Source of the DNA: an uncultured bacterium
Lineage (GTDB): Bacteria; Actinomycetota; Actinomycetes; S36-B12
Length of the DNA stretch: 35,488 nt
NCBI GenBank assembly: GCA_903909555.1
Contig: CAIVWG010000117.1
Location: forward strand, 1-35,488
Direction: 5' to 3'
The position numbers and the translations under genes are program-made. Within the stretch, counting starts at the first letter, position 1; every line of letters starts with the position of its first letter. Positions 15,876 through 19,230 of this stretch are shown here, in pieces. The notes under the pieces were generated by a model. It was not told where the DNA came from. It worked only from the letters and a program-made list of their open reading frames with translations, and ran no database searches.

Positions 15876-16562
15876 TCATGCCGGAGTCGCGGTCACGATG
15901 ACGTTGGAGAGGTAGCTCCCGGCGGCGGAGTCGAAATCCCCGCCGCAGGTGATGAGCGTGAGCCGATGAGCGCCGTCGGTGCCGAAGGCCTCGCGCACGA
16001 TGGACGCGAAGTCCTCCTTGAGCACCATCTCGACCTCGCTCACCCGGAAGCGATGCGCGGTGCCGGACTCGTCGACGACACGAAGGCGGTCTCCCGCCTC
16101 CAGGCCCTCGAGGTTGTCGAAGGCACCCGACCCGGCCACCGCCGAGTTGCGATGGCCCACGATGACCGTCGAGCCGGCCAGGGAGTCCAGGGACACGCTG
16201 CCGCGGTACCACCCGACCGTCGTGACGTCGTCCGGGACGACGACTCCGCCCGCCTCATCCAGGCCCACCTCGATGACGGGCGCCTGCACCCCGAGTTCCG
16301 GGAGCGCAATCTGCCGGGGGATGGCCTCGGGCGATCCCGCTGGCTGCGCGACCGCCTGCGGCGCTGCCGCGCCGTTGGCTTGCGGCGCTGTCGCGCCGTT
16401 GGCTGGCTGCGGTGGTCCTCCACCCTCGGTGGCGGGTTCCGAGATCATGGCCGCCGCCGGAGGCGGGCTCCCGGCACCCAGGAAGTGTGCCGGAAGCACC
16501 GCCGCCAACGCCGCGATGATCACGAAGGCCAGTGCCCATCCGAGACGCTTGAGCAACGTCAT
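15876..16562 (-). CDS. Class F-type sortase
   Basis: N-terminal TM anchor; Pro/Ala-rich linker; RQIALPELGVQAPVIEVGL; VIVGHRNS (catalytic His); HRLTLITCGGDFD (TLITC catalytic Cys); downstream Y-x-x-N. Confidence 0.9.
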   Translation of the reverse strand: MTLLKRLGWALAFVIIAALAAVLPAHFLGAGSPPPAAAMISEPATEGGGPPQPANGATAPQANGAAAPQAVAQPAGSPEAIPRQIALPELGVQAPVIEVGLDEAGGVVVPDDVTTVGWYRGSVSLDSLAGSTVIVGHRNSAVAGSGAFDNLEGLEAGDRLRVVDESGTAHRFRVSEVEMVLKEDFASIVREAFGTDGAHRLTLITCGGDFDSAAGSYLSNVIVTATPA

Positions 16563-16574
16563 GGCACCTGCCTC

Positions 16575-17837
16575 TCATCGCTCGGCTCGCCGGTAGCGCA
16601 GCAGTCCGTTGATGCCGAGGCTGAGCGCCCCGAGGACCAGCAGCCACAGGAGCGCGGGCTTGCTCGGTTCCGGGAAGGGCCCGCCACCGGCGTCAACGCC
16701 CGTGGGCAGCCGCCCCGATGCCGGGCTCACGCCCGTGCCGGATGCGGCTCGCGGCTGACCGCTGTAGCTGATGCCGGAGGGGAAGACGAACCCCGAGGGT
16801 CCCACCGAGGGGCTCGTGGTCCCCGGAGACGGCGTCACCGTCGTCTCCGTCGGAGTCGGCGTCGTCGATCCCGGGGACGGCGTGATCGTCGTCTCCGTCG
16901 GTGTTGCCGTCACCGTGACCGTCTCGGTCACCGTCGGGGTGCTGGTCGGCTGCGCGGTGATCGTCGTCGGCACGGGAATGATGACGGTGTCGGTCTGCGT
17001 CGCCGTGGCCGTCACGGTCGACGTTGCCGTCTCCGTGGTGGTCGCCGTCGCCGTCGCGGTCTCCGTCAAGGTTGCCGTGGCCGTCGCCGTCTCCGTCGTG
17101 GTCGCCGTCGCCGTCGTCGTGGCCGTCTCCGTCGTCGTCGCCGTGGCCGTCGCCGTCTCCGTGATCGTCGGGGTCGACGTCGGGGTTGCCGTGACCGTCT
17201 CGGTGACCGTCACGGTCGGGCTGGCCGAGGGGGACGGGGTGCAATTGCCCCAGCCGGCACCCCCGCCCTGGCCGTTGTTACACGGAGTCTCGAAGTTGCT
17301 GTCGCTACTCGACGGCGATGGCGACGAGCTGCCCGTCGGACTCGAGCTGCCCGTCGGACTCGAGCTGCCCGTCGGGCTCCCCGACGACGAGGACCCGGAG
17401 GGACTCGGCTTCGTGTTCACCGAGCCCGGCGGGGCTGAGGGCTTGGTGAACAGGGGCACGTCGTCGGACCACGAGCCGCCGCCAGAGCCACCTCCATCCC
17501 CGGACCCTCCCCCTCCTCCGGAACCTCCTCCTCCGCCAGAGCTGCCCCCGCCGACGATCTGGGGGAGTTCCTGGACTAGGGACCCGGAACCTCCCCACAG
17601 GCCTTGACCCCCCGAGCCGCCTCCCCCTCCGGAGCCACCACCTCCCCCGCCCGAACCACTCCCACTGCCGAGGCTCGACGCCAGTTGGCCCCAGTCCCCG
17701 GCATTCGCCGTGGGAGCCAGCATGAAGAGGGTCAGGCCCGTCGCCGTGGCCAACCCGGTGACAGCGACAAAGAGCGAGGCTCCTCGTCGCGGTTGCGAAC
17801 GCCGGTATCGCCCGGACGTTCGAACGACTTTGCGCAT
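16575..17837 (-). CDS. Putative cell-surface protein: Gly-rich region, Ser/Pro repeats, long Thr-X stalk, C-terminal TM and basic tail
   Basis: Signal peptide ending APTANA; GSGSGGGGGGSGGGGGSGG; SSSPTGSSSPTGSSSPTGSSSP; TVTVTETVTATPTSTPTITETATATATTTETATTTATATTTETATATAT; C-terminus KPALLWLLVLGALSLGINGLLRYRRAER. Directly upstream of the sortase on the same strand. Confidence 0.85.
   Translation of the reverse strand: MRKVVRTSGRYRRSQPRRGASLFVAVTGLATATGLTLFMLAPTANAGDWGQLASSLGSGSGSGGGGGGSGGGGGSGGQGLWGGSGSLVQELPQIVGGGSSGGGGGSGGGGGSGDGGGSGGGSWSDDVPLFTKPSAPPGSVNTKPSPSGSSSSGSPTGSSSPTGSSSPTGSSSPSPSSSDSNFETPCNNGQGGGAGWGNCTPSPSASPTVTVTETVTATPTSTPTITETATATATTTETATTTATATTTETATATATLTETATATATTTETATSTVTATATQTDTVIIPVPTTITAQPTSTPTVTETVTVTATPTETTITPSPGSTTPTPTETTVTPSPGTTSPSVGPSGFVFPSGISYSGQPRAASGTGVSPASGRLPTGVDAGGGPFPEPSKPALLWLLVLGALSLGINGLLRYRRAER
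16840..17215 (-). repeat. Degenerate 6-bp-periodic repeat encoding alternating Thr-X stalk
   Basis: + strand shows long runs of gtcgccgtc/gtctccgtc/gtcgtggtc; the - strand encodes (TA/TV/TE)n. Confidence 0.85.
17326..17379 (-). repeat. Three tandem 18-bp units (gagctgcccgtcggactc) encoding SPTGSS repeats
   Basis: Units at 17326-17343, 17344-17361 and 17362-17379; the first two are identical, the third differs by one base (gggctc). Confidence 0.9.
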
Positions 17838-18058: not shown

Positions 18059-18088
18059 TTGCCCCCCCCCCCCCGCGTGCGACATACT
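18059..18088 (+). promoter_or_regulatory. Candidate promoter with C13 homopolymer in the -35/-10 spacer
   Basis: TTGCCC (18059-18064), 18-nt spacer including ten further C residues, CATACT (18083-18088); 76 bp upstream of the regulator GTG start at 18164. C tract spans 18062-18074. Confidence 0.4.
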
Positions 18089-18163
18089 GAGAGAGGTCCC
18101 CTGACTCATCCGACGTGACGCGTCGGGCTTCACCGCATCGGGGGGTGCGCCATTCTCAGTCTC

Positions 18164-18934
18164 GTGGCACTTGTACGCGGCCTTGCCGACGCACCGGACG
18201 GCAGCGAAGCAGCGCACATTGTCCGGTCATCGATGAGTCGGGTGATGAAGGTCCACTCCGCGGCCATCTACCTGTGCCCGCCCGACTCGCGCGCCCTGTT
18301 GCTGGACGGGCAGGAGGGATTCCACGACAGCCTCGGGGAGTTGTTCGGGCGGATTCCCCTGGATGAGGACCTCCCGCTCAGCCACGCTCACGAGAACGGC
18401 GTCGAGATCGAGCTTTACCTCGACGGCCGCGACCCCACGCCGCCCGTGGAGGTGCTCCTCGGGCGGCACCCCGAACTCGATGGCGGGCGGATCCAACTGT
18501 GTCCCTTGCTTCGCCGCGGCAAGGCCCACGGCGTCCTCGCGTTGGCGGACCATGACGGCGCCTCGTCCCTGTCCTGGCAGCAACGGACCTTCCGTGAGGG
18601 GGCCGCGGCTGCCGTGAGCATCTGGGGCTGGACCCGACTCATGTCACCGGACGTCGCAGCACCTCGCCGGGACGATCACGGGATGACCGATCGCCAGCGC
18701 TCGATTCTGCTGCTCGTCGAACGCGGGTACACCAATGAGCGCATCGGGCGATCCCTGGGCTACTCGACGTCGACGGTCAAGGCGGAACTCGCACGGATGT
18801 TCCGCATGACGAGCACCTCGCGGCGTGAGCAACTCCTCGTGGTGGCGCGTCGGATGGGGTGGCTGACCGCGTTATCCGAACATGACGGTGAGGACGACCT
18901 CACTCGTCGAGGCGGTAGCCGACCTTCATGGTGA
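18164..18934 (+). CDS. LuxR-type HTH transcriptional regulator with N-terminal GAF-like domain
   Basis: C-terminal HTH MTDRQRSILLLVERGYTNERIGRSLGYSTSTVKAELARMFRMTSTSRREQLLVVARRMGW; N-terminal GAF-like VMKVHSAAIYLCPPDSRALLLDG...RIQLCPLLRRGKAHGVLALAD. GTG start; an in-frame TGA lies about 50 nt upstream. Confidence 0.8.
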   Translation: MALVRGLADAPDGSEAAHIVRSSMSRVMKVHSAAIYLCPPDSRALLLDGQEGFHDSLGELFGRIPLDEDLPLSHAHENGVEIELYLDGRDPTPPVEVLLGRHPELDGGRIQLCPLLRRGKAHGVLALADHDGASSLSWQQRTFREGAAAAVSIWGWTRLMSPDVAAPRRDDHGMTDRQRSILLLVERGYTNERIGRSLGYSTSTVKAELARMFRMTSTSRREQLLVVARRMGWLTALSEHDGEDDLTRRGGSRPSW

Positions 18935-19109
18935 CCTGGTAGTGACTGACCTTGCCCTCGTGGATGTGACCGCGAACCTCGACGACCTCAAACCAGTTGA
19001 GCCGATGCAGGGCGTCCGATGCCGAGGACACGCCGTTGCGGATGGCATCGTCGATCCCATCCGGCGAGGTGCCCACGATCTCGGTGATCCGGTAGGTGCG
19101 GTTGGGCAT
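18900..19109 (-). CDS. Dodecin family flavin-binding protein
   Basis: MPNRTYRITEIVGTSPDGIDDAIRNGVSSASDALHRLNWFEVVEVRGHIHEGKVSHYQVTMKVGYRLDE: canonical dodecin length and motif (W at the flavin site, H-EG-V-HYQVTMKVG). Confidence 0.95.
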   Translation of the reverse strand: MPNRTYRITEIVGTSPDGIDDAIRNGVSSASDALHRLNWFEVVEVRGHIHEGKVSHYQVTMKVGYRLDE

Positions 19110-19230
19110 GATGTCTCCCAAGGTCGAAGGAACGCCGTTGCATCGCGACGGTAATGCATGGCCGAACCCCGCGTCACGGATTCGCCAGGGAGAACCTCGA
19201 AGCCGTGCTACCACGGGGGATGCCCACGGG

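Follow-up and report, generated by a model that had tools for sequence, protein, structure and literature searches.

Homopolymer phase variation is known mainly from host-associated bacteria, where it mostly switches surface genes. In Neisseria, poly-C or poly-G tracts lie in the promoter spacers of opc, porA and fetA. In Bordetella pertussis, single-C changes upstream of fim3 and fimX alter expression (PMC10172299, PMC1891110), and the poly-C lengths range from 10 to 15 at fim2 and from 13 to 18 at fim3 (PMC1891110). Homopolymer tuning upstream of regulators or surface genes is also established in actinobacteria, as is switching within coding sequence. Upstream homopolymers tune espR and espACD in Mycobacterium tuberculosis, where one additional G in the espR 5′ UTR raises EspR and such a +1 indel alters both the regulator level and its regulon (PMC11898584). 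In Cutibacterium (Propionibacterium) acnes, 54 polymorphic tracts, mostly G/C, have been catalogued, and one of them, HPT_37, which was inferred to lie between the −35 and −10 elements, is associated with a two-fold expression difference (PMC4746626). The pili of Bifidobacterium breve switch through G-tracts, and its G10-G11 tracts show mixed lengths in culture (PMC9187656).

Here, we describe a poly-C tract upstream of a regulator gene in the window, by which we mean the whole 35,488-nt stretch of DNA that was analysed; it is contig C117 of a 277-contig, 2.79-Mb MAG of an uncultured actinobacterium that is 89% complete. The original prediction read the tract as a phase-variable promoter spacer and called it unusual in an actinobacterium, a judgement that does not hold given the actinobacterial upstream homopolymers (PMC11898584, PMC4746626) and the B. 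breve G-tracts (PMC9187656). We favour, with moderate confidence, the explanation that two sister LuxR/GAF-type regulators have each retained such a tract upstream as a slippage-prone regulatory element.

The C13 tract and the downstream regulator

Direct reading of the window sequence confirmed 13 consecutive C at 18062-18074, as originally described, and this is the only C/G run of at least 8 within the window. The true length could differ from 13 by one or two. The tract is intergenic and ends 89 nt before the GTG at 18164, a position from which it could affect expression. The features of the locus are as follows.

15876-16562, minus strand: sortase (PF04203), adjoining the secreted-protein gene
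16575-17837, minus strand: secreted Gly/Ser/Thr-rich protein with a C-terminal membrane helix, divergent from the regulator, its start 224 bp from the tract
18059-18064, plus strand: TTGCCC, −35-like hexamer (4/6), overlapping the tract, no better than chance
18062-18074, plus strand: C13 homopolymer, one of only two C/G runs of at least 9 in the genome
18083-18088, plus strand: CATACT, −10-like hexamer (4/6), 18 bp from TTGCCC, no better than chance
18110-18126, no strand assigned: CCGACG-TGACG-CGTCGG, a perfect inverted repeat lying between the tract and the regulator gene, read directly
18116-18118, plus strand: TGA stop, in frame with the regulator and 3′ of the tract
18130-18157, plus strand: CACC..TCGGG..TGCGCCATTCTC block, resembling a block of the same order downstream of the second C13
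18164-18934, plus strand: LuxR/GerE-type regulator with a GAF-like N-terminus, 256 aa from the GTG, true start uncertain

The regulator had been labelled GAF/LuxR. Both it and its sister paralogue, described below, match the C-terminal GerE helix-turn-helix (PF00196) above the cut-off, and this half of the label is sound. The window regulator has no Pfam GAF match; for the GAF half, the N-terminal family profile gave weak matches to the GAF-type structures 3oov, 2w3d and 3k2n (E 0.003-0.007). The label as a whole is reasonable, its GAF half tentatively so. The GTG at 18164 had been put forward as the sole plausible start. It is indeed the only ATG, GTG or TTG in the regulator's frame after the in-frame TGA; however, homology with relatives and with the sister reaches a few codons upstream of it (GGCAILS / GEGCAIVS) and no good Shine-Dalgarno sequence was found before it, so the start of the window regulator is uncertain. 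At the other end of the gene, the listed coordinates place a minus-strand dodecin gene (18900-19214 of the window) across the 3′ end of the regulator.

A second C13 tract upstream of the sister regulator

A genome-wide scan of the 2.79-Mb MAG found two C/G runs of at least 9, each exactly C13. The second lies at 7074-7086 of contig C10, well within this 20-kb contig, on the coding strand and upstream of another LuxR/GAF-like regulator, whose likely start, ATG 7159, is 72 nt downstream of the tract. The two regulators are 33% identical. In its own genome and in 85 family genomes the window regulator has the sister as its best match, and the reverse is also true (E about 2e-30 for the pair, 1e-20 for the next best match); a 21-sequence tree likewise joins the two with support of 99/98. 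The chance that a second tract would fall within 150 bp upstream of the sister gene on its strand is about 2.7e-5, calculated post hoc. Similarity between the two loci does not reach significance on the 5′ side of the tract (p 0.63) and is marginal on the 3′ side (p 0.04), and the shared CACC..TCGGG..TGCGCCATTCTC block is a weak similarity (p about 0.04 against mononucleotide shuffles). The upstream DNA of the two genes is thus barely alignable, which indicates that the two loci either retained or regained the tract as the flanking DNA diverged.

Among the family members examined, the tract is confined to this pair: 27 homologues in relatives, together with the third paralogue of the genome (C127), carry no C run of at least 8 upstream, and we rejected the tract as a general feature of the family. 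No close orthologue was found among 166 genomes of the order (E<=1e-16), homologues being only about 30% identical, and genome contig scans with the regulator returned nothing close, the one hit of this kind being a homologue in a member of the genus. The control set comprised about 70 loci around C/G runs of at least 9, nearly all from other genomes of the genus or order, which were fetched and searched with the family profile; a family member was present within the fetched flanks only at the two C13 loci of the MAG. Poly-C runs in other MAGs were rejected as support, as none lies near a family member and many are contig-end artefacts.

The upstream regions of the homologues contain other elements. 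A GGCTATAGCC / GGATATAGACC-like palindrome, in one or two copies about 11 bp apart, precedes many LuxR-family members across genera (L013, L014, L016, L111, L011, L115, L007, L109, L110, L120 and L018), about 80-210 bp before the match, and it is probably a conserved operator. Many of the homologues without a tract have a tandem GGCTATAGCC-like element, which, like the palindrome, is missing at both C13-bearing genes. In the region about 222-272 bp upstream of its match, the homologue L007 (G005 C82) also carries five runs of C6, spaced mostly 11 bp apart, which form a periodic C-rich array.

Mismatch repair in the genus

MutS (MutS_V) was undetected in all 11 genus genomes searched, whereas the control search detected it in 11 of the 14 reference genomes. 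Although the MAG itself is 89% complete, the lack of MutS extends across the genus. NucS is present in the MAG (E=1e-39), and in M. smegmatis this enzyme leaves indels of 1-2 bp unrepaired (PMC11551767). With NucS present and MutS undetected, slipped C's should escape repair, and the C13 should be unstable in this organism. The second C13 upstream of the sister paralogue and the apparent lack of MutS together strengthen the phase-variation idea and widen it to a regulator pair. The part of the original proposal that concerns a slippage-prone tract is therefore probable, while the promoter-spacer mechanism attached to it fared poorly, as described below.

Reading frame and leader RNA

A frame-shift or read-through switch is excluded for the window gene since the TGA at 18116-18118 lies in frame between the tract and the start. 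At the sister locus a frame switch is not excluded, the reading frame being open from GTG 6973. The predicted fold of the window leader is identical for C11-C15, and a leader-fold switch of the espR kind is therefore not predicted for this gene. We also considered a leader RNA pairing between the C tract and the start-proximal G6 and rejected it: it is absent from the minimum-energy fold, which stays unchanged across C11-C15. The predicted fold of the sister leader shifts by ~3 kcal/mol with tract length, only in the hairpin at the tract. The inverted repeat at 18110-18126 forms part of a stem in the predicted RNA fold of the window leader and, from its sequence, is a possible operator or hairpin.

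These leaders also bear on a reading in which the tract is maintained for a fixed structural role and not for length variation. It might serve as a binding site, as a C-rich element of the leader RNA, or through a rigid or unusual DNA structure; the G13 of the opposite strand can form a quadruplex and the C13 an i-motif. Such a role would account for the identical length of both tracts, 13, and for the G-rich segments 3′ of the tract in both leaders (G6 at 18140-18145 in the window; GGGG and GGGGAGGG at the sister locus). However, a constant C13 would be hard to keep without indel repair, and the window tract is unpaired in the minimum-energy folds. A fixed role is therefore unlikely, in our judgement.

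Rarity of long runs

Genome-wide, there are 161 C/G runs of at least 7, and no A/T run of at least 8 was found. From first-order composition, measured on the window, ~1112 C/G runs of at least 7, ~104 of at least 9 and 0.9 of at least 13 would be expected, so that long runs are depleted roughly 7-fold (at least 7) and 50-fold (at least 9). Among 30 inspected runs, 25 were C7, three C8 and two C13, approximate counts read from overlapping loci. Given this depletion, both C13 tracts stand out as outliers among the run lengths actually observed, and the window C13 is not a chance repeat.

These counts have to be weighed against the view that both tracts are neutral C runs, or scars of a duplication or insertion behind the gene pair, with no regulatory role. 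Composition allows about one run of at least 13, and therefore the position of the tract, not its length by itself, carries our argument. In addition, occasional C11 runs were found within contigs from other genomes of the order, and some P. acnes tracts mark rearrangement sites (PMC4746626). Yet only two runs of at least 9 are observed where about 104 are expected, both surviving runs occupy equivalent positions next to two old paralogues, and a neutral tract would not have survived divergence down to 33% identity. We consider coincidence or a passive relic improbable.

The promoter-like hexamers

The spacer reading, which goes back to the original prediction, places the tract within a sigma-A-type promoter, TTGCCC-N18-CATACT, whose spacer would be switched by slippage, with C12 giving 17 bp and higher output. 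The two hexamers and their 18-bp spacing are present as described; the last three C of TTGCCC belong to the C13 tract, and the spacer covers 18065-18082. Spacer tracts exist in Neisseria. A precedent among actinobacteria is the spacer tract HPT_37 of P. acnes (PMC4746626). However, the pair scores 8/12, and an equally good site occurs in 21.5% of dinucleotide shuffles, so that it is no better than chance. Moreover, a stricter promoter scan of the tract region returned no site, and promoter scans of the sister C13 locus found no counterpart. The spacer mechanism is thus unlikely.

Divergent genes and assembly

Both C13 tracts are located between divergent genes. In the window, the regulator is divergent from a surface protein/sortase pair, in agreement with the original description: the secreted protein has a signal-peptide-like start, and no LPXTG-type motif was seen in it despite the sortase gene directly next to it. 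At the sister locus, the divergent gene encodes a winged-helix/PAS regulator, and a nitrate-reductase operon lies on the other side. This operon is of the narGHJI type and adjoins the sister regulator in convergent orientation (L075, G000 C10, 8859-15709). The divergent arrangement would allow the tract to act on the surface-protein gene in the window and on the winged-helix/PAS gene at the sister locus, instead of or besides the LuxR gene. Against this, it is the LuxR genes that form a sister pair, while their two divergent neighbours are not related, and the window tract is 224 bp from the start of the surface protein; we regard this target as quite improbable.

An assembly or sequencing artefact, which the single MAG and the many contig-end or N-flanked poly-C/G runs in other genus MAGs might suggest, is very improbable, as both tracts lie at least 7 kb inside contigs with unique flanks and intact genes on either side, and an artefact would not pick out two sister paralogues.

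A probable slippage-prone element in a regulator pair

Under the favoured explanation, a slippage-prone regulatory element upstream of the two sister regulators, replication slippage would add C's to the tract or remove them from it, and the slipped C's would be left unrepaired in a cell that has NucS but no detectable MutS-type mismatch repair. The change in C number would then alter the distance or structure in the regulator promoter or the start-of-transcript region, which would change the amount of regulator per cell and lead to clonal variation in two regulons. We infer that tract length varies in the population and that this affects expression. The step at which the tract would act might be core-promoter spacing, the distance to an activator site, as in the Bordetella fim promoters, or the leader RNA, as in espR. 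Both loci agree better with an activator-distance or promoter-proximal form than with a −35/−10 spacer. After the exclusions, comparison with described systems leaves a promoter-proximal element that would act through its length or structure, for which the Bordetella fim promoters are the nearest model.

Several observations weigh against a slippage switch. The tract is known from one MAG and at one tract length, and the homologues of relatives lack a C run of at least 8 upstream. The core promoter is unsupported and is missing at the sister locus, and the predicted fold of the window leader does not change from C11 to C15. In P. acnes, tract lengths track clades, which suggests slow drift over switching (PMC4746626).

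A more tentative extension is that the two sister regulators form a paired slippage switch, in which independent tract states would give up to four regulator combinations per clone and hence a form of bet-hedging at the regulator level. In such a switch, one regulator adjoins the sortase/surface-protein pair and the other a nitrate-reductase operon. If the slippage reading is true, the locus would represent contingency control at the level of regulators in an uncultured lineage.

Comparison with known systems

Like the Neisseria spacers, the window tract is a long C/G run beside −35/−10-like hexamers; unlike them, its hexamers do not exceed chance expectation and have no counterpart at the sister tract. 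With B. breve it has in common an actinobacterial G/C tract (10-12 in B. breve, where slippage was measured) linked to sortase-dependent surface structures (PMC9187656), but the B. breve tracts are intracoding and frame-switching, a mode that is excluded for the window gene. P. acnes is also an actinobacterium whose tracts are mostly G/C, mostly intergenic and upstream of genes; it has 54 polymorphic loci, in contrast to the two long tracts here, and its tract lengths follow clades.

The M. tuberculosis espR locus resembles ours more closely in that an actinobacterial homopolymer precedes a regulator within a large intergenic region. In espR, however, the tract is a G7 over the mapped transcription start that acts on translation via leader folding, whereas here it is a C13, and the predicted window leader fold is insensitive to tract length. 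As at Bordetella fim2, fim3 and fimX, separate paralogous loci each carry their own promoter-proximal poly-C of similar length. The fim genes encode fimbrial subunits and have a mapped BvgA site and −10 element, while the genes described here are actinobacterial regulators. What is distinctive and new relative to all of these systems is the paired, paralogue-specific tracts, restricted to two sister regulators in one genome.
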